Assembly: GCA_020160935.1 (NCBI GenBank)
Contig: JAIUPL010000027.1
Coordinates: 16,969-80,968, forward strand
DNA from: Bacteroidota bacterium
Lineage (GTDB): Bacteria > Bacteroidota > Bacteroidia > Chitinophagales > Saprospiraceae
DNA: 64,000 nt
Direction: 5' to 3'
Positions 1,423 through 41,127 of this stretch are shown in pieces (positions within the stretch are counted from its first letter, which is position 1; every line of letters starts with the position of its first letter). A program made the translations under genes and the position numbers. The notes under the pieces were generated by a model. The model was not told the origin of the DNA. It saw only the letters and a list, made by a program, of their open reading frames with translations, and did no database searches.

Positions 1423-3829
1423 ACTTCCCCACAATCTCAAACCGCTGCTCCAGCCGATACCCGTCTTTGTCTACCAGTGCCAAAACGTGCTGCCCGACAG
1501 GCGGTTGCAGCGCCATTTGATGAAAGGTGCGGGTGCTGCCCAGGTACACCCCGTCCAGATGCCAGAAAATTTCAATATCCGGCGTACGGTGCGCCACCTG
1601 AAAAACCGTGCTGCTGAGTTTACCGTTGAGGTCGACAGGCACATAAATTCGGGTCGGGTTTTTGGGGTAAATCAGTTGCATGGGCGACTGCATATGCGCC
1701 GTTTGAGCGCCCACACAATCGGGCCGGAAAGGTGGTGGCGACACATATGAAGGATTTTTGCTTTTGAAGTAAAACTCCTCGATAGGTGGCAGCACAAACC
1801 ACGGCACATGCAGCATGGAGGCCTGCGAAGCACAATCGCTGTTTACCTGCCACATGCCCGTAGAGTCGAGGTGCAGCAACTGGTGATTGGGGCAAACAAC
1901 TGCTTTCAGGCCGCTTTTGGGTATCCACAGCGTGTCATTTTCGCAATATTCGCCTGCACGCCAGCCGCTTTTTTTACATACCGGGGCCTGCACCATATCA
2001 TCGTAGGGCGGGTCGAACCAGCGTTCGCCGCCAGGCAGTTGTTCAAAAATTTCAAACAACACAGGCGCCGCCATTTCCACTCCCAGCAGGCCGGGGCGGC
2101 CTTCTCCATCGGCATTGCCCACCCATACACCGACAGCGTATCGGGGCGTTACGCCGGCGGCCCAGGCATCTCGGAAGCCCATGCTGGTGCCCGTTTTCCA
2201 GGCCACGGGGCGGCCTGCACGGAAAAGTTCCCACTCTCCTGCGCTATTGGGCCGTTCCACTTCGCGCATGGCTTCGAAGGTGTACCAGATAGATCCGGCG
2301 CTGAGCAGGTCGGTGCTGCTTTGGTGGGTGTTTGTGTTGCGCCGGGGGCCGTCTTTGTCTTTCAGCAGGATAGGCGCCCGGAAGTCGTCGGAAGCATATC
2401 GGCCGTTGCGATCGTAAAATGTGCCGAGCCGACGTGCCATGCAGGCATACATATTTGTAATGTCGCTCAAGGTCGCTTCCGCGCCGCCCAGAATCAGCGA
2501 CAGTCCATAATGATCGGGCGGGCGGTTCAGGGTCGACAGTCCCAGGCGCTGGAGGTTGAAATGAAATTTTTCCAGTCCATACTGTTGCAGCAACAACACA
2601 AATGGCACATTGAGCGAACGAATCAGCGCGCGTTTGGCGGGTACCGCTCCGTCGTAGGTTTCGTAGTAGTTTTCCGGTTTGTACTGCCCGAGTTGTGTCG
2701 GCACATCATGCAGCAGGCTGTTGGGCAAAATGTCGCCGCTTTCCAGTGCCAGTGCGTAGAGGTAAGGTTTCAGGATACTGCCCGTGCTGCGCGGTGCGGT
2801 GATGATGTCGACCGATTCGCCATGTTCTTTGCCGGCGCCCTGCACATTGCCGACATAGGCCAGCACTTCGCCGGAAGCCACATCGATGATAATGGAGGCG
2901 AGGTTGTGCACGTCATTGCCACTATAAATTTCCTGTCGGCGCATCAGAATGTCCGAAATCCGTTGTTGCAGGTCTTTATCGAGGGTTGTATGGAACCGGG
3001 AAGCGCCCCCGGCAGCGAGGCGATCGAGCAGGTGAGGCGCCAGTTGGGGCAATGGGAGGGGCTGTTCGGGCAGGGGTTCTTCCTGTGAAAGTTCGCATTC
3101 TGCCGCGCTGATTTGTCCATTGTCGCGCAGGCGTTCGAGCAGTCGGTTGCGTTTTTGCACCAGTGCATCGCGGTTGCGGCCCGGGTGAATGAGCGCCGGG
3201 CTATTGGGCAACACCGCCATGGTGGCTGCCTCGGCCCAGGTGAGCAGGTGCGGGCTTTTGCCGTAATAGCGCCACGAAGCGGCTTCTATGCCTACCACAT
3301 TGCCGCCGAAGGGCGCATGAGAAGCGTACAGGTTCAGGATTGTTTTTTTGGAATACGTCAGTTCCAGCCGTGTCGCCCGGAACATTTCCAACAATTTTTC
3401 CCATACCGTGCGCGGCGGATTGCCACGTGCCAGCCGAATGACTTGCATGGTGATGGTACTGCCGCCGCTGACCACCTGCCCACTGCGGGCATTGAGCCAC
3501 ACGGCGCGCAGCAGGCTCACCGGATCTACGCCCGGGTGCCAGCGAAAACGTTTGTCTTCAAAGGCGATGACACAGGCGGCGTACTTGGCAGGCACCGAAT
3601 CACTTTCCGGGAAACGCCACTGCCCGTCGGTAGCAATGCGCGCGCCCAGCAACTGTCCATCGCGGTCTTCCAGCACCACCGAAATGGGCTCGCGAAACAA
3701 GGGGCTTGGCAAGCAAAACAGCCAGATCAAAAGCAATACCAGCAAACCCGCAGCAGTGCGCGGTCGGCGCCGCACCCAGGCTGCCAGCCCAATTCCTATG
3801 CGTTGAAACCAACGCCCTGCGGAACGCAA
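1421..3829 (-). CDS. pbpC: penicillin-binding protein 1C
   Basis: A bifunctional peptidoglycan synthase of about 802 residues. An N-terminal membrane anchor (about residues 25-45, LLVLLLIWLFCL) is followed by a GT51 glycosyltransferase domain with the catalytic EDKRF and the GGSTITMQ motif. The transpeptidase domain shows SILK (SxxK, about residue 346), SLN (SxN) and KTGT (about 545). The C-terminal region matches the BiPBP_C domain typical of PBP1C. It acts at the outer face of the inner membrane. The start appears to be TTG at 3829: no in-frame ATG lies between it and the upstream stop. The alpha-2-macroglobulin gene that often accompanies pbpC is absent; a lipoprotein gene precedes it instead. 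Confidence 0.93.
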   Translation of the reverse strand: MRSAGRWFQRIGIGLAAWVRRRPRTAAGLLVLLLIWLFCLPSPLFREPISVVLEDRDGQLLGARIATDGQWRFPESDSVPAKYAACVIAFEDKRFRWHPGVDPVSLLRAVWLNARSGQVVSGGSTITMQVIRLARGNPPRTVWEKLLEMFRATRLELTYSKKTILNLYASHAPFGGNVVGIEAASWRYYGKSPHLLTWAEAATMAVLPNSPALIHPGRNRDALVQKRNRLLERLRDNGQISAAECELSQEEPLPEQPLPLPQLAPHLLDRLAAGGASRFHTTLDKDLQQRISDILMRRQEIYSGNDVHNLASIIIDVASGEVLAYVGNVQGAGKEHGESVDIITAPRSTGSILKPYLYALALESGDILPNSLLHDVPTQLGQYKPENYYETYDGAVPAKRALIRSLNVPFVLLLQQYGLEKFHFNLQRLGLSTLNRPPDHYGLSLILGGAEATLSDITNMYACMARRLGTFYDRNGRYASDDFRAPILLKDKDGPRRNTNTHQSSTDLLSAGSIWYTFEAMREVERPNSAGEWELFRAGRPVAWKTGTSMGFRDAWAAGVTPRYAVGVWVGNADGEGRPGLLGVEMAAPVLFEIFEQLPGGERWFDPPYDDMVQAPVCKKSGWRAGEYCENDTLWIPKSGLKAVVCPNHQLLHLDSTGMWQVNSDCASQASMLHVPWFVLPPIEEFYFKSKNPSYVSPPPFRPDCVGAQTAHMQSPMQLIYPKNPTRIYVPVDLNGKLSSTVFQVAHRTPDIEIFWHLDGVYLGSTRTFHQMALQPPVGQHVLALVDKDGYRLEQRFEIVGK

Positions 3830-5884: not shown

Positions 5885-8800
5885 ATGGCCAATCCCTACA
5901 ATGAATCCTTTCTCTCCTTTCTACAAACGCTGAATGCTGCACAGCAGTCGGCCGTAGACGCTGTGGAAGGTCCTGTGTTGGTCATTGCAGGTCCGGGAAC
6001 GGGGAAAACACATATTCTTACGGCTCGTATCGGCAACATTCTGACACGTACCGATGCGCGGGCCCAGAATATTTTGTGCCTCACTTTCACAGATGCCGGC
6101 GTGCATGCCATGCGCCAACGCCTGCTCGAACGCATCGGGCCGGAAGCGCACCGGGTGCCCATATTCACGTTCCATGCTTTTTGCAACCGAATCATTCAGG
6201 AAAACCCGGAAGTGTTCGGGAAAGGCAACCTCGAACCCTTGAGCGATCTGGAACGTATAGAACTGGTCAGGCAAATGCTGACAAGGCTGCCTGCCGAACA
6301 TCCGCTTCGGGAAGGCCGAAAAGACACTTTTCAGTTTGAGCAGCACCTGCGCGACCTGTTCGCTACCATGAAAAAAGAGGGCTGGGCGCCGGGGTTTGTC
6401 CTGAAAAAATGCGACGAATACATACGCGATTTACCTCAAAACCCGGAATTTATTTACAAGGTAAATACCAAAAAAGCCCGCAAAGGCGACCTCAAGCAAG
6501 CGCAGATTGACGAGGCCATCGAAAAAATGAACCGCCTGAAAGCCGCTGCCGATCTGTACCCCAAGTACCAGCAATTGCTGGATAAGCACGGGCGGTACGA
6601 ATACGAAGACATGCTGCTGTGGGTCACCAAAGCCTTCTCCAAAAACGAGGCCCTGCTGCGCACCTACCAGGAACGATACCAGTATGTGCTGGTCGACGAA
6701 TTTCAGGATACCAACGGCGCACAATTTCACCTGCTCCAGCAATTGCTCGACTACTGGGATGTGCCGAATATTTTTATCGTGGGCGACGACGACCAGAGTA
6801 TTTTCGAATTTCAGGGCGCGCGCCTGGAAAACCTGGTACAATTTTACCAGCAATACCGCAAAGGGCTGAAAACCATTGTGTTGAGCGATAACTATCGCTC
6901 GGCACAACCCATCCTGGATGCAGCAGCCCACGTGATCAGGCACAACGACATTCGGGCCATTAGCCGCCTTGACCAGCCGCTCGAAAAAATGCTTCGGGCC
7001 AGTGCCGACAGGTTTCAGGCGAGCGCTGCGACGTATACGCCGGCGCGTATCACAGTATATGAAAACCGACTGCACGAACTGGCCGATATTGTTGCCAGAA
7101 TAGAACGGCTCCTTGCACAAGGCACGGCGCCGTCCGCCATTGCGGTGTTGTATGCCCGCCACCGGCAGGCTACACAGTTGCTGGCTTTGCTCGAAAAAAA
7201 GGGGATTCCTTACCAGACAAAACGCCCGGTCAATGCCCTCGATTTGCCGGTTATGCAGCATTTCCGTACACTGCTGACCTATCTGCACGATGAATTGTTG
7301 GAACCGTTTTCCGGCGACCATCGCCTGTTCCCGCTGCTGCACGCCTCTTTTTTCAACCTGGCCCCGCTCGATCTGGCGCAAATTGCATTGGCCATGCGGC
7401 GCGCCGCATCGCGCGAAAACAAAGACCTGTACATCAAAGCAGGTCATGCTTCCTCTAAAAAAACGTATTGGCGAATAGTCCTCTCGGATGCTGCATTTCT
7501 GGAAAATCTGCCGCTTTCCAATCCGGATGTATACCTGCAACTCGCCGCGCACCTGAACGGCTGGATCGCCGACGCCGCCAACCTGCCGCTGCCCCGGTTG
7601 ATCGAACATCTGTACACTCAGACCGGCCTGATGACCTGGGCTTTGCAACAACCCGATCGGGTGTGGCATATTCAGGTGCTGCACACCCTGATGGAATTTG
7701 TACTGCGCGAATCAGCCCGCAATCCGCGACTGGCACTCGGCCGATTGCTCGATTTGCTGCGCAGTATGGACGACAACCAGTTGCCCTTACCTGTGCAACA
7801 GCCCGTACAAAACGGCCCCGGGGTGCAGTTGCTCACCGCACATGCGGCCAAAGGGCTGGAATTTGAGCATGTTTTTCTGTTCGATTGTGTGGACGACGCC
7901 TGGGAAAAAAGCGCCGGTAACAAAAGCGGCAGGTTCGCACTTCCTCCTACTCTTACGCTTTCCGGTGAAGAAGACGCTGTGGAGGCTCGTCGGAGGCTGT
8001 TTTATGTGGCGCTCACCCGCGCCAAGGCGCATTTGCAAGTGTCGTGGGCAGCGGCGGCCTACGATGGCAAGTCGCTCACACAAACGCGTTTTGCCGACGA
8101 AACCACGCTGCCGCACAACCACGCAAGCGTGCCGCAGGATATGCTGCTGGATGCCCAGATCAGTCTGCTGCTGGAACCTGCACAACCGGTTATCACGCTG
8201 CCTGAAGCGGCTTTGCTGGATGAATTGCTCGGTCAATTTAGCCTGAGCATCACGGCGCTCAACCGCTACCTGCGTTGTCCGCTGGCTTTTTACTATGAAG
8301 ACCTGCTGAATATACCAGCCGCAACGAGCGAGGCAGCGGCATTTGGCACGGCCATGCACGGCGCCCTGCAAGAGTTTACCCTGAAAATGAAAGCGGATAA
8401 AAAGATGCAGTGGCCTTCGGCGGAGTCGCTTGTGCGGATGTTCGGGCAGGAAATGGAGCGCCAGCGCGCTTATTTTTCTGAGAATGGCTGGGTGCAACGG
8501 TTTGCGCTTGGGAAAGACTACCTGCGGCGTATACACGTCGAACAGGTGCCTTTTTGGCGAAAACGTGTAATTGTGGAAAGAAAAATTGACAAGGTAGAAC
8601 TCGAGGGGGTGCCGCTTACCGGTGTGATCGATAAAATCGAGTGGTTCGATAATCAAACCATCCGGCTGGTGGATTACAAAACAGGTACGCCGGATATGAA
8701 AAAAACAGCAGCACCCGATGAAAAACAACCCTTCGGAGGCGAGTACTGGCGGCAATTGGCATTTTATACCATCCTGCTGGAAACAGCACATATTTACCCT

Positions 8801-29903: not shown

Positions 29904-32288
29904 ATGTTCAACAACTATCTGCTCATTGCATTCCGCAATTTGCGGAAAAACAGCACTTATACACTGCTGAATATTTTAGGGCTCGGGCTGAGTATTGCCT
30001 GTTGCATTGTCATTTTTCTGATGCTGCAGTACCACCTCAGTTTTGATGCGTACCACAGCAGGGCGGATCGCACCGTACGGGTTGTTACCGACGTGCATAT
30101 GGAAAGCATCACACCTTTCCGGGGCGCGCCCAATCCGATGTCGAAAGCCCTGCGAACGGAATTTTCATTTTTGGAAAATGTGGCGATGTATGCTACCCGT
30201 GCGGAGGCTCTGATCAGTGTGCCGGGCACTTCAGGTATTCCCGACAAGTACAAGGAAGAGGACAAATTTGCTTTTGTAGAACCTGAATTGTTTGGTATTC
30301 TGGATCTTCCGCTGTTGCAGGGCGACGCCAAGGCACTTGCGGAACCCAATACAGCGCTCATTACCGAAAATCTGGCCCGCAAATACTATGGAACGATTGA
30401 TGCGGTGGGGAAAACGTTTCGATACGACAACAAGGTGGATTTTCGAGTGGCAGGTATCCTGCGCAATTTGCCCGTCAATACGGATTACAACAGCGAAATT
30501 CTGGCTTCCTGGGCTACGCGCGCTTCCATGTCGGAGTACAGCCCGTTCATGGATAACTGGGGCGGCATGAATGGCGGCACTTATTGCCTGGCAACCTTTC
30601 GCGAAGGGCACCGGCAGTCGGAACTGGAGGCTGCCATACCCGAATTCAGGAAAAAATACCGGCATCCGGAAAGTGAAATGCTGTTTTTATACAAGCCTTT
30701 GCCGCTTACCAGCATCCACCTCAATAACGATTACAACACCGGTATGATGAAGAAAAGTTACCTGTGGGCGCTGGCCCTGATCGGGTTTTTTCTGTTGATC
30801 ACGGCCTGTGTCAATTTTATCAATATGGCTACCGCGCAAGCGCTCAAACGCGCCAGAGAAGTGGGCGTGCGGAAATCGCTGGGCAGCACGCAGGGGCAAT
30901 TGTTTTGGCAGTTTATTTTTGAAACTGCCCTGATCGTAGTGGCGGCTGTCGTGATTGGATGGGTAATGGCACGGATTTTCCTTCCCTATCTGAATACCTG
31001 GACCAAGGATCAGGTTGAATGGACGGGCACGGATTTGAAGATGTTGATAGCGTTTTTACTGGCTTTGAGTGTGGTCATCATTTTCCTGGCCGGCGCCTAT
31101 CCCGGGTTGGTGCAGGCGCGTTTCAAGCCGGCGGTTTCGTTGCGCGGCCTGGCAGAAACCAAACCTGCAGGCGGCTTTTCCCTACGACGTATGCTGGTAA
31201 CCACACAATTCACCATTTCCCAGATTCTCATCATCGGAGCAGCGGTGGTGACTGCCCAGATCGAGTTTGCGCGCAATGCCGACTGGGGTTATCGCCCGGG
31301 TGTGGTGTTCACGGTGCCGGTGCCCGATACCGATCATATGAAATCCCTGAAACAAGAGATCGCCTCCATTGCAGGGGTAAAAAACGTGTCGTTGTGCTAC
31401 CAGCCGCCGGCCTCCAGTTCCAACAACCAAAACGGCGTGCAATTTGAAAACCGAAGTGCAGGCGAGCCATGGGCAGTTAATTTCAAACCTGCCGATGCCG
31501 ATTACCTCGAAACCTTTGGTCTGCAACTCGTAGCCGGCCGAAACGTGATGCCCTGCGATACGGTTCGGGAATACGTTGTAAATGAAACCTTTGTAAAAAA
31601 ACTCAACCTCGCTGGCCCGCCAGAAATTCTCAACCGCTCTGTCAATATCGATGGAATAAAAGGGACAATTGTGGGCGTGGTGCGCGATTACCACAACTGG
31701 GAATTGTCGCAGGATATTTCGGCCATCGCTTTTTCCACCCGTTCATCCTCTTATTCCAACTGCGCCATCGAACTGATGCCAGGCAATCCGGCGCCGGTGA
31801 TGGAGCAGATCAAACAGGTATGGGAGCGCAATTACCCTGAGTACTACTACGAACATACGTTTATGGATGAACGCATGGCGCAGTTCCTCGAATCGGAAAG
31901 CATCATCATGAACCTGATTCGCATTTTTGCCGGCATCGCCATCTTCATCGGCTGCCTGGGCTTGTACGGACTGGCTTCGTTTATGATTTTGCGTAAAACC
32001 AGGGAAATCGGTATTCGGAAAACACTCGGCGCCAGTGTACCCGGAATTCTGTGGCTGTTCGGACGCGAATATATTCGCCTGATTCTGGTGGCTTTTGTTA
32101 TCGCTACGCCGATGGCATGGTGGGCCATGAACGCCTGGTTGCAAGAATATGCCTATCGAACAACATTAGGTCCCGGCATCTTCGCTTTTGCGCTGGCCAT
32201 GACATTTGTAGTGGCGTTATTGACGGTGGGTATTCAGAGTGCGCAGGCGGCGCTGGCGAATCCGGTGAAGAGCCTGAATAGAGAGTGA
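29904..32288 (+). CDS. ABC transporter permease, MacB/FtsX type
   Basis: A 794-residue membrane protein with the duplicated MacB/FtsX layout common in Bacteroidota. A first helix near residues 20-40 (LLNILGLGLSIACCIVIFLML) is followed by a large MacB_PCD periplasmic domain. Helices follow around 290-410 (ALIGFFLLITACVNFINMATAQALKRAREVGVRKSLGS and later), then a second periplasmic domain and C-terminal FtsX helices around 670-780 with REIGIRKTLGA. The VGVRKSLG and IGIRKTLG words are FtsX signatures. It works with the two ATPases and the adaptor upstream. Confidence 0.92.
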   Translation: MFNNYLLIAFRNLRKNSTYTLLNILGLGLSIACCIVIFLMLQYHLSFDAYHSRADRTVRVVTDVHMESITPFRGAPNPMSKALRTEFSFLENVAMYATRAEALISVPGTSGIPDKYKEEDKFAFVEPELFGILDLPLLQGDAKALAEPNTALITENLARKYYGTIDAVGKTFRYDNKVDFRVAGILRNLPVNTDYNSEILASWATRASMSEYSPFMDNWGGMNGGTYCLATFREGHRQSELEAAIPEFRKKYRHPESEMLFLYKPLPLTSIHLNNDYNTGMMKKSYLWALALIGFFLLITACVNFINMATAQALKRAREVGVRKSLGSTQGQLFWQFIFETALIVVAAVVIGWVMARIFLPYLNTWTKDQVEWTGTDLKMLIAFLLALSVVIIFLAGAYPGLVQARFKPAVSLRGLAETKPAGGFSLRRMLVTTQFTISQILIIGAAVVTAQIEFARNADWGYRPGVVFTVPVPDTDHMKSLKQEIASIAGVKNVSLCYQPPASSSNNQNGVQFENRSAGEPWAVNFKPADADYLETFGLQLVAGRNVMPCDTVREYVVNETFVKKLNLAGPPEILNRSVNIDGIKGTIVGVVRDYHNWELSQDISAIAFSTRSSSYSNCAIELMPGNPAPVMEQIKQVWERNYPEYYYEHTFMDERMAQFLESESIIMNLIRIFAGIAIFIGCLGLYGLASFMILRKTREIGIRKTLGASVPGILWLFGREYIRLILVAFVIATPMAWWAMNAWLQEYAYRTTLGPGIFAFALAMTFVVALLTVGIQSAQAALANPVKSLNRE

Positions 32289-32492
32289 GAGATGTGAGAG
32301 GGTGAGAGCGTGAGAGATGTGAGAGCGTGAGAGTACGTAGAGTTGACCGCTTCGCCACAAAAATTGAAATTAAAAGAGCGAAGCGGTCAACTCTACGTAC
32401 TCTCACCCTCTCACATCTCTCACGCTCTCACTCTCTCACTTCTCTCACTCTCTCACTTCTCTCACGCTCTCACTTCTCTCACGCTCTATACG
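32285..32492. repeat. palindrome, GTGAGAG arms, class-2 core, convergent genes
   Basis: Arms of GTGAGAG words, junction CGTAGAGTTGACC, then GACCGCTTCGC and its mirror GCGAAGCGGTC around an AT-rich loop (CACAAAAATTGAAATTAAAA). The same core in reverse orientation occurs at 37724-37912. The right arm overlaps the stop of the 32486 gene. Confidence 0.95.
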
Positions 32493-34739: not shown

Positions 34740-34990
34740 AAAGGGCAAGGGGCAAGGGGCAAGGGGCAAGAGGCAAAGGGCAAGGGGCAAAAGGCAAGAA
34801 GCAAGAGGCAAAGGGGCAAGATGCAAGACGCAAAAAGCAAAAGGCAAATTCTATCTGTAAAATTGCCCCTTGCTTTTTTGCCTCTTGCCCCTTGCCTTTT
34901 GCCCCTTGCTTCTTGCCCTTTGCCCCTTGCCCTTTGCCTCTTGCCCCTTGCCCTTTGCCTTTTGCCCTTTGCCCCTTGCCCTTTGCCCTC
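34740..34990. repeat. inverted repeat with GGCAAGG/GGCAAAA heptamer arms
   Basis: Left arm (34740-34845) and right arm (34862-34985) of GGGGCAA, GAGGCAA, AAGGCAA and AGAAGCAA words, centre AATTCTATCTGTAAAATT. It fills the gap between the WYL regulator and the GH3 gene, abuts the WYL stop, and gives long spurious ORFs on both strands. Confidence 0.93.
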
Positions 34991-35996
34991 ATCCATACAA
35001 TCCCGCCGCTTCTTCCAGCACCGCACTGATTTTTTTCACCAGAATACGCGGGCTCAAGACCTTCACTTTGGGCCCAAATCCCAGGATTTCGCGTTCCAGT
35101 TCGAAATTGAGCACCACTTCGATTTGAATGATGATCTCCTGTTCCGATTCTTTCAACACGGTTTGAGAGGCGTGCAGGGGCTTGGTGAGCAAATAAGGAA
35201 TGGTGTCGCGTCGTACGCTGAGCACTACCTTCGCGGGGTTGTCTTTTTCGGATTTGGTAACGCCGATCACATTGTCGAAATAGTGATTGAAATCGACTTC
35301 TTTGTATGTATAATACGTTTCTTTCAACAACTCTTCCAGCCCTTCGATGCGGTCGAGCGCCAGCGTAACCAGGTGGCGCTGGGCTTTGTTGCGGCAAATC
35401 ACAAACCAGCGATTGCGGTATTCTTTCAACAAATAAGGGTAATAAACGCCTTGTTTGGTACTTCTGGCACGGAAAGATCGGTAGTCGATCAGCACCGCCC
35501 GGCGGGCAGCAATGGCTTTGTACAGTGGATCGATCCAGTTCAGTCCTTTCAGCAAGGGGTTCGATTCGAACTGGATGATGTCGGGACCGTGGGTGCGGCT
35601 GCGCTGGAGTTCGTTTTCCAGTTTGGCGATCATCTCGCTCATTTCCCCAAAATGGTTAAACCCGTTCAGGTGTTTGAGGATGCCTACCACTTCGTTCATT
35701 TTTTGCAGGTCGGCCGAGGTCAGTTTGGACTGGGTAATACTGAATGTGGGGTCTTCGTAGGTGTAGTATTTTCGCTCCTGCACCACGATCGGGGCGCTGT
35801 ACAACTTGTCACTGCGCATGGTTTGCAGGTCGAGTTGGAGGGTGCGTTTGCTTACCCCGTCGCGAATACCTTCGTATTCATACAAGGCTTCGGATACCTT
35901 GTCGATCAGGTTTTCGAGCGTCCAGCGACGCCCGCGGTTGCGCAGGCATTCATCGATGGTTTTGTAGCGAATGAGGGCGAGTTTGTTTAATGCCAT
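34989..35996 (-). CDS. WYL-domain transcriptional regulator
   Basis: A 335-residue DNA-binding regulator. The N-terminal winged helix-turn-helix (MALNKLALIRYKTIDECLRN...GVSKRTLQLDLQTMR) is followed by a WYL-type domain (KAIAARRAVLIDYRSF, then LKEYRNRWFVICRN) and a C-terminal WCX-like extension. WYL domains are thought to bind nucleic acid or nucleotide ligands. It is divergent from rtcB, and two matching palindromic operators lie between them, so it very probably controls rtcB and its own gene. The motif residues read NRWFVI rather than a classical W-Y-L, as is common in this subfamily. Confidence 0.92.
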   Translation of the reverse strand: MALNKLALIRYKTIDECLRNRGRRWTLENLIDKVSEALYEYEGIRDGVSKRTLQLDLQTMRSDKLYSAPIVVQERKYYTYEDPTFSITQSKLTSADLQKMNEVVGILKHLNGFNHFGEMSEMIAKLENELQRSRTHGPDIIQFESNPLLKGLNWIDPLYKAIAARRAVLIDYRSFRARSTKQGVYYPYLLKEYRNRWFVICRNKAQRHLVTLALDRIEGLEELLKETYYTYKEVDFNHYFDNVIGVTKSEKDNPAKVVLSVRRDTIPYLLTKPLHASQTVLKESEQEIIIQIEVVLNFELEREILGFGPKVKVLSPRILVKKISAVLEEAAGLYG

Positions 35997-36093
35997 GGCA
36001 GGGTTGCGGCGAATTTATTTGGAACTTAATACCGGATGAAGCGGTTAGTCGGGTGCTGTTTGATTTTTTTGAAATCGCACAAAAGTATTTATC

Positions 36094-36112
36094 TGCGCAA
36101 TCTATTTGCGTA
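36094..36112. promoter_or_regulatory. operator A, TGCGCAA-N5-TTGCGTA
   Basis: A 19-bp dyad, TGCGCAATCTATTTGCGTA, about 100 bp upstream of the WYL start codon. The half-sites match those of operator B exactly and the spacer is again 5 bp. Probable binding site of the WYL regulator, controlling its own promoter. Confidence 0.8.
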
Positions 36113-36214
36113 ATAAACCATTTGGTGTTTTTTTCAAAAAAAATAAAAAAATATTTCAATTGAAAATCAATTGTTTAGAAACAATTTTGAAAAATTTTAT
36201 GATAAAAATTTTAC

Positions 36215-36233
36215 TGCGCAATTCTATTGCGTA
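36215..36233. promoter_or_regulatory. operator B, TGCGCAA-N5-TTGCGTA
   Basis: A 19-bp dyad, TGCGCAATTCTATTGCGTA, 48 bp upstream of the rtcB ATG. It lies just upstream of a possible minus-7 box (CACCTTTG, one mismatch, 36245-36252), so a bound protein would occlude the promoter. The stretch between the two operators is very AT-rich. Confidence 0.8.
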
Positions 36234-36280
36234 GTACGGTGTTCACCTTTGCTTTGTCAAAAAGAAAACACAACTATAAA

Positions 36281-37723
36281 ATGAAACGCACTACCCAGAC
36301 ACCGATCCCCATCACCGGAAAAGACCTGCTGACGCTGGGCTTCAGCGAAGGGAAAACCATCGGTCTGGCCCTCGAAATAATCGCAGGTCCGCTGGCCACT
36401 GAAACCAAACAACGCACCCTGACCCTGCTCAAACGCGTTCGGAAAAATCCCGAATCGTACCTCGACGACGCAGCACTGGCTCCGCTGGCCGCCGCCCTGA
36501 TCGAAGCCGCGCAGGCACAGGTAGATACCACTATTCCATTGAAAGAAACCACTGATTCATACGCCGTTTTCGGAAAAGATCAGATCGAAGAAGGCGCCCT
36601 CAACCAGATGAACATAGCCATGAAACTTCCGGTAACGATCGCCGGGGCCCTGATGCCGGATGCGCATCAGGGCTACGGACTGCCGATCGGCGGGGTGCTG
36701 GCTACCAAAAATGCCGTCATTCCGTATGGCGTCGGCGTCGACATCGGTTGCCGTATGGCGTTGTCCGTGTTCGATATTCCCGAAAAACACTTCTTCGACC
36801 ACCGGTCGACCTACAAGCGCGAACTGATTGCCCATACGGCTTTCGGCGCCGGAAACGGTTTCCGCGGCCAGGATCGCGCCTACCACCAGGTGCTCGATCG
36901 CAAGGAATTCGAGATGAACGGCCTGCTGCGCGGTCTGAAAGACAAGGCTTTTGCCCAATTGGGCTCTTCCGGCGGCGGTAACCACTTTGTAGAATGGGGC
37001 ATTATCGATTTTGAAGAAAAAGACGAGGCGCTGGGCGTGGAAAAAGGCCGTTACCTCGCACTCCTGACGCATTCAGGTTCGCGTGGACTCGGCGCTACAC
37101 TTGCCGGACACTACACCCGCATCGCCAAAGACTTGTGCAAATTGCCGCAACATGCTGCCAACCTGGCTTACCTCGACCTCGACAGCGAGGCCGGGCAGGA
37201 GTACTGGCTGGCCATGAACCTCGCCGGCGATTATGCCTCGGCCTGCCACGAGGTGATCCATCGCCGGCTGACCAAGGCCATCGGCGCCAAGGTGCTGGCC
37301 AGCGTGGAAAACCACCACAATTTCGCCTGGAAGGAAACCCTGAACGGCGAAGAGGTGGTCGTGCACCGCAAAGGCGCTACGCCGGCCGGGAAAGGGGTGA
37401 TGGGCATCATTCCGGGTTCCATGACCGCACCGGGGTTTCTGGTGCGCGGAAAAGGAGAGGTTTCCTCGATCCACTCCGCTTCACATGGCGCCGGGCGTCA
37501 GATGAGCCGCACCCAGGCCATCAAAAACGTATCGAAAAACGAACTGCGCACCCTCCTGCAGGATATGGGCGTCACGCTGATCGGTGGGGGCCTCGACGAA
37601 GCGCCGATGGCCTACAAAAACATTCACCAGGTCATGGCTTCCCAGCAGGAACTGGTAGATACCGTTGCCCGCTTTACCCCGAAAATGGTGAGAATGGCGG
37701 ATGATGGAAGCAGAGAAGATTAA
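36281..37723 (+). CDS. rtcB: RtcB-type RNA ligase
   Basis: RtcB joins RNA 3'-phosphate or 2',3'-cyclic phosphate ends to 5'-OH ends using GTP and manganese; it repairs cleaved tRNA and other RNA. This protein has 480 residues, longer than E. coli RtcB. Seen are ALMPDAHQGYGLPIGGVLAT (metal-binding DxH), VDIGCRM (metal Cys), GSSGGGNHFVEW, LTHSGSRGLG, a metal-site VENHHNFAW, and SASHGAGRQMSR with the His that is guanylylated. ATG 36281 starts MKRTTQTPIPITG; the upstream in-frame codons include the operator. No archease or RtcA gene is adjacent. Neighbours: WYL gene upstream, tRNA-like RNA and a slipin downstream. Confidence 0.96.
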   Translation: MKRTTQTPIPITGKDLLTLGFSEGKTIGLALEIIAGPLATETKQRTLTLLKRVRKNPESYLDDAALAPLAAALIEAAQAQVDTTIPLKETTDSYAVFGKDQIEEGALNQMNIAMKLPVTIAGALMPDAHQGYGLPIGGVLATKNAVIPYGVGVDIGCRMALSVFDIPEKHFFDHRSTYKRELIAHTAFGAGNGFRGQDRAYHQVLDRKEFEMNGLLRGLKDKAFAQLGSSGGGNHFVEWGIIDFEEKDEALGVEKGRYLALLTHSGSRGLGATLAGHYTRIAKDLCKLPQHAANLAYLDLDSEAGQEYWLAMNLAGDYASACHEVIHRRLTKAIGAKVLASVENHHNFAWKETLNGEEVVVHRKGATPAGKGVMGIIPGSMTAPGFLVRGKGEVSSIHSASHGAGRQMSRTQAIKNVSKNELRTLLQDMGVTLIGGGLDEAPMAYKNIHQVMASQQELVDTVARFTPKMVRMADDGSRED

Positions 37724-37912
37724 CAGAGCGTGAGAGCGTGAGAGATGTGAGAGATGTGAGAGAGTGAGAGATGTGAGAGTACGTAGAGTTGACCGCTTCG
37801 CTCTTTTAATTTAATTTTTATGGCAAAGCGGTCAACTCTACGTACTCTCACATCTCTCACATCTCTCACGCTCTCACCCTCTCACATCTCTCACACTCTC
37901 TCACATCTAAGA
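37724..37912. repeat. palindrome, GTGAGAG arms, class-2 core
   Basis: GTGAGAGAT-type arms, junction CGTAGAGTTGACC, core GACCGCTTCGC-loop-GCAAAGCGGTC. The core is the same as at 32285, in reverse orientation. It separates rtcB from the downstream RNA region. Confidence 0.95.
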
Positions 37913-37954
37913 AATATGCTCCGAACCCTCCCAACCCTCGTCGGGCGCATCTCC

Positions 37955-38269
37955 TCGCGCCGTTGTGTGGGCCGCGTGCGGTACCATATTCAGGTTGCAG
38001 GCAGTAGGTGTCATATACAGTGTGTGTCGCGGGTTCGACTCCCGCCTTCCCTCGAGGATGTAGCTAAGTGGTATAGCAACACTTTTGTGATTGCAGGTTC
38101 GAATCCTGCCCGGCGCGTTGTCGGTAGCATAATGGTTAATGCACTGGACTTTTAATCCACCACCATCAAAAGAAGGGTAACTTTTAAAAATAGCCCGCGA
38201 ACGCGTCGGTTGCACCCTGCTGTACGACAGCAGTCGGCGAACAACTTGCAGGTTTCGACCGCTACCGAC
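37955..38269 (+). ncRNA. tRNA-like modules downstream of rtcB
   Basis: At least three tRNA-like pieces, none a canonical tRNA. Two perfect T arms: GCGGG-TTCGACT-CCCGC (38029-38045) and GCAGG-TTCGAAT-CCTGC (38093-38109). Two D-arm-like hairpins: GCTA-AGTGGTA-TAGC (38063-38077) and GCAT-AATGGTTA-ATGC (38127-38142). One anticodon arm TGGA-CTTTTAA-TCCA (38145-38159), whose 7-nt loop carries a Lys-type UUU anticodon. A helix GTCGGTAGC (38120-38128) with GCTACCGAC (38261-38269) can close the third module. The 15 nt between the second D and T arms are too short for a normal anticodon arm plus variable loop. CGCGCCG (37956) can also pair with CGGCGCG (38111). Same strand as rtcB. Confidence 0.7.
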
Positions 38270-38437
38270 ACAGCATGTAAACGGAAGGGAAAGCCCCGGC
38301 TGGAACCATGCCACTCCAGGTGTATGCCTGAAGCGGTACGGCCTATGCCATACTTTTCTGAAAGATACCTGCCCTGCCGGATGCCAGGGAAACCTCCGTT
38401 TTCTGCCGACGGGTGCAATTTGACGCGTTCTTTTTTT
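38200..38437 (+). ncRNA. structured RNA with long closing stem and T-tract end
   Basis: AACGCGTC and TTGCACCC (38200-38217) pair with GGGTGCAA and GACGCGTT (38411-38429), followed by a run of T (38431-38437). Inside lie a hairpin CTGCTG-TACGA-CAGCAG (38217-38233), helices GTCGGC/GCCGAC (38233-38238 with 38405-38410) and AAACGGA/TCCGTTT (38279-38285 with 38395-38401), and hairpins CTGGA/TCCAG (38300-38319) and CCCTG/CAGGG (38372-38389). The segment 38261-38269 left free between two helices is the one that pairs with the tRNA-like module upstream, so both parts may be one molecule. No known RNA family is recognised. Confidence 0.7.
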
Positions 38438-38494
38438 GTATAAATATTTTATTAAATACTGATAATCAACGCATTATCATAAAACTCCGACATC

Positions 38495-39589
38495 ATGAAA
38501 TTCTTCACCGTCCCCGTCAACCAGGTAGCGCTGGTTTTCAAACAACAACAACTGGCACAGGTGCTCACCGCCGGCAGTTATTGGGTAGGCTTCGGTAAAA
38601 CGGTCGAATTGTACGACATGTCTTCGCCGTTTTTGCCGGGACAGGAACTGAACGTGTTGCTTCAACATGCCGACCTGGCTGCCCTGCTCGATGTGGTGGA
38701 ACTGGCCGACAATGAAATTGCGCTGCTCTACCGCGACGGTAATTTCCGGCAAGTGCTCAGCGCCGGCAAGTTTGCGTTCTGGAAAGGCGCTACCGTGTAC
38801 AGCGTGGTGAAAGCCGACCTGCGCAGCCTGTATATCGATGCGTACATCGACAAAAACCTGCTCGAAAAAGGTGCGCTCAACCCCTATGTACGCTTGTATC
38901 GCATCGAGGCATTCGAACAGGGTATCCTGTTTGTCAACGGCGAAATGGTGCAAAAACTGTCCACTGGTTCACATTATTTCTGGAAAAACGCCGACATCGT
39001 GACGGTGGTAAAAACCGATCTGCGGCAGATCACCGTCGACCTGCTCGGCCAGGAAGTGCTCACGAAGGATAAAGCGCAGTTGCGTATCAACATCACCGTG
39101 CAATACCGCGTGGCGGACATCGTGAAAGCGCTGGTCGACAACAAGGATTTTGAGCGCCAGTTCTACACGCAAATGCAAATGGCCTTGCGGGAAATCGTCG
39201 GTAAACAAACCTTCGACGAACTCATGGACAACAAAGACCGCATAGCCGAACAGGCGCTGGCAGGCGCTACCGAAAAAGCCGCGCAACTGGGCGTGGAACT
39301 CGTCGACTTCGGGGTGAAAGACATCATCCTGCCCGGCGACATCCGCGAGATCATGAACCAGGTGCTCGTGGCCGAAAAACGCGCACAAGCCAACGTCATC
39401 ACCCGGCGCGAGGAAACAGCCTCCACCCGCAGCCTGATGAACACTGCCAAACTGATGGAGGAAAACGCCATGCTGTTCAAACTAAAAGAGATGGAATACG
39501 TGGAAAAAATCGCCGAAAAAATCAACTCCATCACCGTTTCCGGCGGAAGCCAGGTGGTCGATCAGTTGAAACAGTTGTTCGTAAAATGA
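38495..39589 (+). CDS. slipin / SPFH (band 7) domain protein
   Basis: A 364-residue SPFH-family protein closest to slipins. The SPFH core is seen in TVDLLGQEVLTKDKAQLRINITVQYRVAD and IVGKQTFDELMDNKDRIAEQ, followed by GVELVDFGVKDIILPGDIREIMNQVLVAEKRAQANVI, the slipin signature, then a coiled-coil tail. The N-terminal 120 residues are unusual: no transmembrane helix, and two similar strand-rich segments (VNQVALVFKQQQLAQVLTAG and NEIALLYRDGNFRQVLSAG) suggesting an internal duplication. Slipins occur next to rtcB in several bacterial RNA-repair operons. A terminator follows at 39620. Confidence 0.9.
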   Translation: MKFFTVPVNQVALVFKQQQLAQVLTAGSYWVGFGKTVELYDMSSPFLPGQELNVLLQHADLAALLDVVELADNEIALLYRDGNFRQVLSAGKFAFWKGATVYSVVKADLRSLYIDAYIDKNLLEKGALNPYVRLYRIEAFEQGILFVNGEMVQKLSTGSHYFWKNADIVTVVKTDLRQITVDLLGQEVLTKDKAQLRINITVQYRVADIVKALVDNKDFERQFYTQMQMALREIVGKQTFDELMDNKDRIAEQALAGATEKAAQLGVELVDFGVKDIILPGDIREIMNQVLVAEKRAQANVITRREETASTRSLMNTAKLMEENAMLFKLKEMEYVEKIAEKINSITVSGGSQVVDQLKQLFVK

Positions 39590-39619
39590 GGAAGTGTGGA
39601 AAGAACGCCAAAACACCCG

Positions 39620-39651
39620 GGGATTTGTCGCGCAGGCGGCAAATCCCTTTT
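39620..39651 (+). terminator. terminator after the slipin gene
   Basis: GGGATTTG pairs with CAAATCCC around a GC-rich loop, followed by TTTTC. It ends the rtcB-RNA-slipin island. The rest of the 39590-39792 gap shows nothing I can assign. Confidence 0.85.
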
Positions 39652-39792
39652 CATTTCACAATGAGTTCTAAAAGATGCCTTACAAGTTCCAAACAAAGCG
39701 TTACCCGCTGTTTTCCACTCGTATACAGGTCGCTTTCAGCGCGAAATTTTGATTTTGAGAAGCCGCGCATCAAACAGGAAGGCGTCTGAACT

Positions 39793-41127
39793 ATGTCTAA
39801 GTTATACTCTTTTGCACTTGTAATCCTTGTTTCCATTTCCGTTTCCACACACCTTTCAGCACAATGCAGCCCTTCCGCACCAGCCGAAGGCTCCTGCTCG
39901 GGCGGCAATGGCGCTGCCACCGACGGCGCCAATATCAACAACAACCAGACCTACTGGTACAGCAGCACCGGCACATTCCAGAACGGCGTGAACCTCAACA
40001 GCGGCGGTACGCTACGCGTATGTGGCAACCTGACGCTCAATCAAATCAACCTCAACGGTGGCACCATCATCGTCACTTCTGGCGCTACCCTGACCATCAA
40101 CGGCGGCGGTACGCTCAACCTGAACAACAACGTGATGATCGCCAACTATGGCACCCTGAATATCAACCGGGACGTATTGTTTCAAAACAACGGAAATACG
40201 ATCGTCAATGCCACTATTTCATCCGTCATTAATATGCCCAACTACAAAATGACGGTTTCCGGTCCCAATACCTCCAGCGGAAATATCTTCATCAACAAAG
40301 GCACGATCAACCTCCATACCCTGGAAGTGACGGCCAACAGCAATGGCGTTTGCCTTGGCAACCAGTCGGTGATCGACACGAAATATTACATCAATTCGAA
40401 GGACAATGCCATTACTGTGGAGCCCGGCGCCGTGGCGGTTCTGCGTTTTACCCAAAACGGCCAGAACAACGCGGCGCTCACTTCTCATTCCGGTCTGCAC
40501 GTGTGCAAAGCACCCGGCGCAACGTTTACCGGCACCAACACGGGTTCGGCTACCATTTATGACAACTGCACATCGGCGGCTGTGGCGCTGCCCGTCACCC
40601 TCACCGATTTTCAGGTAAAAACCACCGGCGCTGCCGTTCAGGTATCCTGGGAAACGGAACAGGAAGCCGACAACCACTACTTTATCGTAGAGCATAGCAC
40701 CGACGGTATTCATTTTGAAACCGGAAGTGCAAAAGTGGACAGCAAAGGAAAAAGCGGCGGCAAGTATTCCTGGCTGGATGCCGCACCCGCGCCTGGAAAA
40801 AACTACTATCGTTTGTTACAAGTCGATGTCGACGGCGCCTCGCAGTACCTCGGTATTCGTGCTGCCACCGTTGCAGGAAGTGTTTTGTCGGCACAGGTGT
40901 ATCCCAATCCGGCCGACGAGCGCGTGGTGGTATCTCTCCCACAAGACAATGAAAATCAGTTCATTGTAACCCTCCTGGACATAAACGGCAAACAGGTGCT
41001 GCGCAATACCGTTGCACCCGGCACCGCAGCGCTCGAACTCGATTTATCGCACCTGCCTTCCGGACCGTATTACGTGATGATTGCAGGCGAACGTTCGGTG
41101 CAGAGCATTAAGGTGGTGAAGAGATAG
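39793..41127 (+). CDS. secreted protein with T9SS type A sorting domain
   Basis: A 444-residue cell-surface or secreted protein. Signal peptide at residues 1-23 (FALVILVSISVSTHLSAQ). Residues about 45-240 are rich in N-G-G-T repeats (GGTLRVCGNLTLNQINLNGGTIIVTSGA) and predict a right-handed beta-solenoid. Residues about 270-350 form a fibronectin-like segment (VSWETEQEADNHYFIVEHSTDG). The C-terminal 80 residues are a T9SS type A sorting domain: VYPNPADERVVVSL ... LLDINGKQVL ... LPSGPYYVMI ... QSIKVVKR. It is exported by Sec, then across the outer membrane by T9SS. Function is unknown; an adhesin-like role is possible. Confidence 0.9.
   Translation: MSKLYSFALVILVSISVSTHLSAQCSPSAPAEGSCSGGNGAATDGANINNNQTYWYSSTGTFQNGVNLNSGGTLRVCGNLTLNQINLNGGTIIVTSGATLTINGGGTLNLNNNVMIANYGTLNINRDVLFQNNGNTIVNATISSVINMPNYKMTVSGPNTSSGNIFINKGTINLHTLEVTANSNGVCLGNQSVIDTKYYINSKDNAITVEPGAVAVLRFTQNGQNNAALTSHSGLHVCKAPGATFTGTNTGSATIYDNCTSAAVALPVTLTDFQVKTTGAAVQVSWETEQEADNHYFIVEHSTDGIHFETGSAKVDSKGKSGGKYSWLDAAPAPGKNYYRLLQVDVDGASQYLGIRAATVAGSVLSAQVYPNPADERVVVSLPQDNENQFIVTLLDINGKQVLRNTVAPGTAALELDLSHLPSGPYYVMIAGERSVQSIKVVKR

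Follow-up and report, generated by a model that had tools for sequence, protein, structure and literature searches.

Why should tandem pieces resembling the arms of tRNA lie between rtcB, which encodes an RNA ligase, and a slipin gene of the SPFH/Band-7 superfamily? The locus that raises this question belongs to a bacterium of the Saprospiraceae (Bacteroidota; contig JAIUPL010000027.1), of which a stretch of 64,000 nucleotides (nt), here called the window, was analysed; positions are counted from its first letter. The non-coding stretch between the two genes was found to hold a conserved RNA structure that is predicted to span 37944-38437 on the plus strand. The gene order, the covariation of this RNA, a conserved palindrome upstream of a neighbouring WYL regulator gene and a tight co-occurrence of the RNA with the SPFH gene were all observed directly. 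Judged from sequence and by analogy with known systems, rtcB, the one covarying RNA and the SPFH gene probably form an operon that is switched by the WYL protein, and the RNA, predicted to have two permuted tRNA-like modules, probably acts together with an SPFH ring, which would deliver cut tRNAs to RtcB. This function is proposed because of the neighbouring genes and of the precedents set by the bacterial Y RNA YrlA and by the rtcBA operon of Salmonella. A sequence-only reading of the same DNA had already suggested a system for RNA repair that has an RNA of its own, and this suggestion has been strengthened by the finding that the RtcB of the window is the sole RtcB match in its genome, by the covariation of the RNA, by its co-occurrence with the slipin gene and by the repair genes and tRNA arrays found in relatives.

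Both tandem modules follow the order T arm, closed acceptor-like hairpin, D arm (Table 1), which is the order of tRNA circularly permuted. The acceptor strands of a tRNA are the two ends of the molecule; those found here are adjacent, with a loop connecting them, and the opening of module 2 falls between its anticodon-like arm and its T arm. The RNA is predicted to carry the circular permutation of tRNA twice, whereas YrlA has one such copy. In the window itself, two of the six positions of the first acceptor-like hairpin (A1) are mispaired. The two perfect T arms and the two D-arm-like hairpins had been reported from the sequence alone as tRNA-like parts; the parts were all recovered at 38029-38142, the T arms recur in relatives, and all of the parts belong to one permuted RNA structure. 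The statement that none of them is a canonical tRNA agrees with our annotation, in which ARAGORN found no tRNA gene in the window and the two Rfam tRNA matches (31.7 and 29.1 bits) lie just above the cut-off of 29. Ordinary tandem-tRNA pairing, where the acceptor 5' strand of one tRNA would pair with the 3' strand that follows T arm 2, reaches 52.3% (46.2% in shuffles) compared to 93-95% for the local hairpins, and a canonical cloverleaf with an enclosing acceptor stem is not seen.

Relatives were gathered by their slipin. Out of 150 genomes of the same family, 67 contain some slipin match, most of them to more distant SPFH proteins, and 23 further full-length places were obtained from 22 genomes. 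A further 83 loci comprise 80 from Bacteroidota, the best 80 of 569 in a scan of named species genomes, and three from viral contigs (individual loci are cited by L number). In the window and the 23 relatives, the slipin gene is preceded, as far as the contigs reach, by several hundred nt in which no other frame attains 110 amino acids (aa), and at least one perfect T arm occurs upstream of it in all 24 loci, with two such arms in 20 of them. At least one perfect T arm outside ARAGORN tRNAs was found on the coding strand in 78 of the 83 further loci, compared to the other strand in one of the 83. The five loci without a T arm are L059, L082, L097, L137 and L138, with only 71 and 27 nt available upstream in L097 and L138 respectively. 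Two perfect T arms lying 54-76 nt apart are present in 74 of 107 loci, which were reduced to 69 by a redundancy cut, and 40 of these 69 were hand-picked for clean alignment.

Since the loci had been chosen by T-arm pairing, the T arms were excluded from the fair covariation figure. Without them, 94.6% of 975 alignment cells in the 40 loci are paired and all 25 pairs show two-sided changes, with 325 two-sided cells compared to 97.7 in shuffles; when the partners were slid, pairing dropped to 32-44%. All five of the helices tested in this way covary. With the T arms included, 96.1% of 1375 cells are paired and two-sided changes occur in 31 of 35 pairs. RNAalifold, used unaided, returned the same seven helices with two-sided changes in 29 of 33 pairs. 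Of the 69 loci, 58 show a full stem of 5 base pairs (bp) directly after T arm 1 and 57 show one after T arm 2, the swapped-locus maxima over 5000 swaps being 22 and 19 respectively. Covariation and the relatedness of homologous rtcB-slipin spacers had both been named beforehand as checks; the covariation is present and the spacers are related.

The remaining helices were examined by swapping partners between loci. A shuffle test of the predicted pseudoknot was only weakly selective (a score of at least 13 in 49 of 69 loci and in 23.6% of shuffles) and was replaced by the swapped-locus test, in which the own-locus mean of 4.05 exceeds the maximum of 3.21 obtained in 10,000 permutations (56 of the 69 loci, those with a P3 hairpin findable by pattern). 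For the closing helix of the 3' domain, the own mean of 7.49 exceeds the permutation maximum of 6.47 over 10,000 swaps (55 of the 69 loci, those that also have a T run). The segment 38192-38440 of the window folds better than 200 of 200 dinucleotide shuffles (z -4.67), whereas the full stretch 37985-38445 gives a weaker signal (z -2.07; two of 100 shuffles fold equally well). The multi-helix RNA with a T tract that was read earlier from the sequence therefore stands (z -4.67), although its closing stem of 8+8 bp is corrected to 9+10 bp with two G-U pairs and, in its 3' strand, a single bulged base. A DNA search of the 150 genomes with 38180-38445 returned, besides the window, two short matches of 22 and 30 nt, and the 3' domain therefore appears to drift fast in sequence. 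At the 5' end, the P1 loop motif UUUCUG[UA]A occurs in 34 of the 69 loci and its reversed control in none. The motif GGAUACCG was considered as a universal feature and rejected, with 18 occurrences in the 69 loci and none in the window.

Table 1. Annotated features of the locus, with positions in the window (paired cells refer to the 40 aligned loci).
Feature	Position	Strand	Remarks
WYL-WCX transcription regulator gene	34989-35996	minus	Pfam WYL 4.6e-11, WCX 2.2e-8; divergent from rtcB
Predicted WYL operator, copy 1, CTGCGCAATCTATTTGCGTAA	36093-36113	none	between WYL and rtcB
Predicted WYL operator, copy 2, CTGCGCAATTCTATTGCGTAG	36214-36234	none	between WYL and rtcB
rtcB RNA ligase gene, 480 aa	36281-37723	plus	Pfam RtcB 5e-81
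Hairpin P1	37944-37961	plus	alignment read by eye; loop diverged in the window
Hairpin P2 (GUGUGG..CCAUAU)	37965-37989	plus	sole 5'-domain helix found by RNAalifold
T arm 1, perfect, 5 bp	38029-38045	plus	
Acceptor-like hairpin A1, permuted (3' strand, loop, 5' strand)	38046-38060	plus	95.4% of cells paired
D arm 1	38063-38077	plus	100% of cells paired
Linker, 15 nt	38078-38092	plus	at the usual place of the anticodon arm; module 1 is without a conserved anticodon arm
T arm 2, perfect, 5 bp	38093-38109	plus	
Acceptor-like hairpin A2, permuted	38110-38124	plus	92.9% of cells paired
D arm 2	38127-38142	plus	90% of cells paired
Anticodon-like arm, 7-nt loop	38144-38160	plus	UUU in the window; 95% of cells paired
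Hairpin P3	38168-38196	plus	loop pairs with 38192-38196, a predicted H-type pseudoknot
Large 3' domain	38199-38430	plus	closed by 38199-38217 with 38411-38430
7-U tract, likely 3' end of the RNA	38431-38437	plus	from sequence
SPFH/Band-7 (slipin) gene, 364 aa	38495-39589	plus	Pfam Band_7 2.3e-28
Terminator-like hairpin 3' of slipin	39620-39647	plus	from sequence

The RNA was also found to be tightly associated with the slipin gene. A covariance model of the tRNA-like part, named R1, was run on 395 genomes of the phylum with up to seven first-look candidates scored in each. At E 0.001 the model matches 393 of these genomes, but scores of 98.6-120.2 bits are confined to 16 of them and all others reach at most 91.8 bits. 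The cut-off of 98 bits was set by eye at this gap (98.6 vs 91.8); with no more than seven candidates scored per genome, a copy away from slipin could have escaped. Slipin itself is present at E 1e-60 in 20 genomes, which include all of the 16, and in each of the 16 the strong R1 match sits just upstream of slipin. The matches of up to 91.8 bits elsewhere are taken to be tandem tRNA genes; this attribution is our own, and its comparison with called tRNAs was limited to fetched loci, L127 and L137 among them. No convincing R1 match was found in seven loci with distant SPFH proteins (L024-L030), the best of them scoring 14.7 bits (L029, E 0.069).

RNA repair is a recurrent theme among the neighbouring genes, whose labels in the following counts derive from tblastn with queries taken from these same loci. 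Around 106 loci, RtcB of the window type was found at 49, WYL at 43 (tblastn) and ARAGORN tRNA genes at 46. When the count is restricted to the 63 loci with full flanks (at least 5 kilobases (kb) upstream and at least 4 kb downstream; viral loci and the duplicate L126 left out), a repair enzyme, namely RtcB, a T4-type RNA ligase, a PNKP-like kinase or a PrfH-like protein, is found in 44, WYL in 35 and a tRNA gene in 32, and 60 of the 63 contain at least one of the three. L033 contains a T4-type RNA ligase together with a PNKP-like kinase-phosphatase, while in L051 an RF-1 domain protein, labelled PrfH by us, comes after RtcB. Common gene orders are WYL-RNA-slipin-rtcB, as in Pedobacter, and WYL-rtcB-RNA-slipin, as in the window, L057 and L058.

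Arrays of at least three tRNA genes on the same strand adjoin 33 of 104 loci (viral L137 and duplicate L126 left out) with a total of 235 genes, three of which have no assigned isotype. Their composition is skewed, as seen from the number of the 33 loci that contain each isotype (Thr 0, Val 1, Ala 2, Gly 4; Asp 23; Phe, Arg and His 18 each). Thr, Val, Ala and Gly together account for seven of the 235 array tRNAs, where one fifth would be expected if isotypes were equal. Many of the favoured isotypes (Lys, His, Asn, Asp, Tyr, Arg, Glu and Gln) are targets of known anticodon nucleases. Between nine and 16 tRNA genes surround the RNA and slipin in L036, L044, L045, L099, L106, L118, L125, L127, L128, L129 and L131. 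The viral contig L137 (IMG/VR) has 36 tRNA genes and a slipin at position 7001 that is 36% identical to that of the window, with D- and T-arm fragments upstream of it; no slipin match was found in 50,697 phage records.

Two other neighbours were observed upstream of the RNA. One of them, in the Saprospiraceae relatives L043-L048 and L050, is a conserved gene for a TPR-like protein of about 180 aa; the one member that was scanned reaches 24.8 bits for TPR_19 (cut-off 25), and tblastn finds the gene in 12 of 106 loci. In L034, a partial gene (2597-3634) could, judged by eye, represent the C-terminal portion of a Ro60-like protein; Pfam gives DUF7788 only and does not confirm a reading as TROVE.

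The genome of the host is 5.84 megabases in size and 97.9% complete, and the best named matches of its slipin are in metagenome-assembled genomes of Saprospiraceae and Chitinophagales. A WYL regulator divergent from rtcB and a slipin downstream had been read from the sequence, and Pfam identifies WYL, RtcB and Band_7 in these genes; the terminator proposed after slipin corresponds to the terminator-like hairpin in Table 1. An RtcB-family ligase gene is thus present at the locus, as in RtcB RNA-repair operons. The start of rtcB was taken as 36281, whereas the mechanical open reading frame opens at 36227. Between rtcB and the RNA lies an imperfect large palindrome of GTGAGAGATGTGAGAG units (37726-37881), with a second copy near 32285-32430. 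It was considered as a part of the system and rejected: its 81-nt core has 63 matches in the genome (both strands counted, many of them being one place twice), and it is therefore an interspersed repeat. Matches to Rfam microRNA families fall on this palindrome and are false matches caused by the repeat.

Regulation by the WYL protein is supported by a conserved palindrome that we predict to be its operator. The consensus CTRCGCAA-N5-TTGCGYAG was derived from inverted repeats noticed upstream of WYL. At 13 or more of 16 positions it is found in 40 of 43 WYL upstream regions (260 nt each), some of which had served to read the consensus, compared to 0.1% of dinucleotide shuffles and none of 43 stretches within the WYL gene. 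The exact core TRCGCAA-N5-TTGCGYA occurs genome-wide in just the two copies of the window, while the core with at most one mismatch occurs at seven places compared to five for the reversed pattern. As there are two exact core sites in the genome, the WYL protein likely controls this operon and little else.

The partner proposed for the RNA belongs to the SPFH superfamily, as it scores above the Pfam cut-off for Band_7 and is predicted to have the SPFH fold. Its AlphaFold2 model consists of three tandem beta units, an SPFH core and C-terminal helices, and no membrane helix is apparent in the protein. The way in which the system might work can be outlined as follows. Damage to tRNA or translational stress would relieve or activate the WYL regulator, upon which the operon would be transcribed. 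The RNA would fold with the L-shaped elbow of tRNA, formed by the T and D loops, and with a loop connecting its acceptor ends, which would prevent its charging and its use in translation. Together with the SPFH oligomer it would then form a ribonucleoprotein scaffold, comparable to bacterial Y RNA on the Ro60 ring, at which tRNA-binding enzymes or broken tRNAs would be held. RtcB would reseal these tRNAs, and the adjoining tRNA array, present in about one third of the relatives, would replace those that were lost. Two studies provide precedents for such an arrangement: ring-shaped Rsr and ring-shaped PNPase are linked by the YrlA RNA (PMC8394870), and damaged tRNAs switch on the Salmonella rtcBA operon (PMC7790460).

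Several observations weigh against this interpretation. Nineteen of the 63 full-flank loci have no repair enzyme in reach, and L056, L098 and L120 have none of the three markers (repair enzyme, WYL, tRNA). Four of the 20 slipin genomes are without a strong RNA match, with scores of 74.5 bits in L164, 41.9 in L163 and 33.9 in L161, and a 15.3-bit fragment in L159. The SPFH model has a mean predicted local distance difference test (pLDDT) of 81.5 but a predicted template modelling score (pTM) of 0.55. In Salmonella, YrlA is not cut by the nuclease (PMC7790460), so that mimicry of tRNA need not mean a direct role in repair. Finally, every copy of the RNA that was found is placed shortly before slipin, a position that would be equally expected of a leader acting in cis.

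One alternative, which we regard as unlikely, is that the RNA acts as a decoy or bait, where the species-variable anticodon-like arm is cut by anticodon nucleases instead of tRNAs and is resealed by RtcB, and where the cut RNA may signal to the WYL protein. The arm would suit this role with its 95% paired helix and 7-nt loop, and its triplets vary, with 29 kinds in 63 scanned arms and UUU being the most common (10 arms). The UUU arm described earlier as Lys-type is indeed present in the window, but its Lys specificity was not sustained as the triplet differs between species. The earlier suggestions that the RNA is a substrate or sensor of cleavage and that the WYL protein senses RNA ends received no support. 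The scan favoured U33 and a purine at position 37 by a bonus, so that their counts (52 and 54 of 63 respectively) are upper bounds, and some of the arms are misplaced. A decoy is also difficult to reconcile with module 1, which has no conserved anticodon arm, and with the six of 69 loci in which the scan gave no arm; moreover, YrlA is not cleaved in Salmonella (PMC7790460), and a decoy would need neither the pseudoknot nor the 3' domain. The missing arm of module 1 likewise speaks against maturation into a translating tRNA.

Rather less credit is given to the possibility that the RNA is a cis-regulatory leader of slipin, either tRNA-like or a ligand-sensing attenuator, whose closing helix and U tract set the read-through into slipin. 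The distance from T arm 1 to the start of the slipin match is 393-783 nt in the 69 loci (median 473), and the closing helix with its U tract is terminator-like, both of which are in line with a leader. However, no alternative antiterminator fold was found, though no systematic search was made for one, and a simple leader would hardly account for two tRNA-like modules in tandem, both with their elbows intact. The RNA of the window comes after rtcB and not at the start of the operon.

It is very improbable that the RNA is a strict bacterial Y RNA to which a Ro60/Rsr protein binds, although it resembles YrlA. The YrlA succession of T arm, acceptor hairpin and D arm is found in the window RNA, and in the Salmonella rsr-yrlBA-rtcBA operon such an RNA, with a closed acceptor-like hairpin between its T arm and D arm, is likewise encoded with rtcB. 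The YrlA model of Rfam (RF02553) matches the window with 39.2 bits and all eight relatives that were searched with 24.6-45.6 bits. These scores are however all below the cut-off of 69, and TROVE (PF05731, Ro60/Rsr) has no match in the 97.9% complete genome, while the Deinobacterium control was positive; a strict Y RNA was rejected on these grounds. The window RNA further differs from YrlA in its two tandem modules, its anticodon-like arm, its pseudoknot and its long 3' domain, and its neighbour is an SPFH protein and not Ro60.

That the RNA is a decayed array, i.e., functionless remnants of tandem tRNA genes, is barely credible and was rejected, for although R1 scores up to 91.8 bits elsewhere on matches taken as tandem tRNA genes and many relatives have genuine tRNA arrays next to the RNA, all five tested helices covary, the local hairpins are paired at 95 and 93% compared to 52.3% for tandem pairing, and the RNA keeps a strict position before one SPFH subfamily.

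The RNA as partner of an SPFH ring can also be compared with other known systems. Circularly permuted tRNA genes (PMC3978253) share with it the inverted tRNA halves joined through their acceptor ends; such genes mature into translating tRNAs, whereas the acceptor hairpin of the window RNA is a covarying stem that is predicted to stay closed. In Anabaena, TrcR represses rtcB, a slipin gene and an array of 26 tRNAs, the levels of which rise under chloramphenicol (PMC10272220). This regulon (rtcB, slipin alr0740 and the 26-tRNA trn operon) is similar in that a single repressor, relieved by stress, governs RtcB, a slipin and a tRNA array, while it differs by separate loci and a ribbon-helix-helix repressor (PMC10272220).

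As to earlier descriptions, Rfam 15 gave no family for the RNA in 35500-40500 of the window, in eight relatives or in four loci outside Bacteroidota, and our literature search, which did not include Burroughs and Aravind 2016, found no paper describing the RNA. Burroughs and Aravind 2016 (doi 10.1093/nar/gkw722) reportedly named repair modules of the SPFH/Band-7 type that include a novel tRNA-like molecule. With an SPFH gene, a tRNA-like RNA and an RNA ligase in common, these modules are very probably the same kind of locus. The kind of locus is thus partly known, and the degree of novelty depends on Burroughs and Aravind 2016.

A more far-reaching version of the SPFH-partner reading is put forward only tentatively, and we consider it doubtful. 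The complex could be a vault-like bacterial ribonucleoprotein, i.e., a soluble SPFH ring or cage with stacked N-terminal beta units, organised by the double permuted tRNA-mimic RNA in place of Ro60 and Y RNA. It would gather cut tRNAs for RtcB while tRNA arrays replace the losses caused by anticodon nucleases, and the eukaryotic vault, with its SPFH shell, TROVE protein and small RNA, would be a distant counterpart. The eukaryotic vault (MVP, TEP1 and vault RNA) similarly combines an SPFH protein having extra N-terminal beta units with a small structured RNA. Pfam does not place the slipin in the vault/MVP families, since MVP_shoulder reaches 16.4 bits (cut-off 25) in two of 51 members, and no vault-repeat family is among the best 25 of 41 Pfam matches listed. 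Among the 50 best matches listed to the SPFH model, none begins at model residues 2-4 except five of the ten MVP matches; MVP is absent among the best 50 matches listed in an N-terminal Foldseek search, which excludes nothing. In the literature, a prokaryotic origin of MVP is left open (PMC7916137) and the MVP domains are called unique to the vault (PMC13100048).

Related slipins were also found beyond Bacteroidota, on records of Photobacterium, Burkholderia and Subdoligranulum, with R1 scores of 48.9, 37.0 and 21.1 bits respectively. The matches in Photobacterium and Burkholderia may be tRNA genes, because ARAGORN reads odd or plain tRNAs there. In Citrobacter freundii, slipin is divergent from rtcR and is followed by a nucleotidyltransferase gene. 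The slipin and nucleotidyltransferase pair is seen in L147, L148 and L175 (E. coli and Citrobacter), adjoined by rtcR in Citrobacter and by a zeta-toxin family gene in E. coli, and this 3.55-kb stretch is held to at least 80% in 1419 of 5426 E. coli genomes. The leader in C. freundii and E. coli has a TGGCAC-type promoter, which we take to be a sigma-54 promoter, and by eye a pair formed by a T-arm-like and a closed hairpin. An RNA gives a weak signal in these Enterobacteria, with R1 scores of 13.6-15.6 bits and fold z values of -0.26 and -0.57.

With this annotation, a vague link between slipin and rtcB becomes a testable complex, made up of a partner gene, a regulator with its likely operator and a defined RNA for which a covariance model exists, in a system that occurs in cultured strains of Pedobacter, Flavobacterium and Chitinophaga. 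If the proposed role is true, mimicry of tRNA by circular permutation would serve SPFH-based repair as well as Ro60 systems. The finding bears on the role of bacterial Y-like RNAs in RNA repair and on possible bacterial counterparts of vault-type SPFH ribonucleoproteins.

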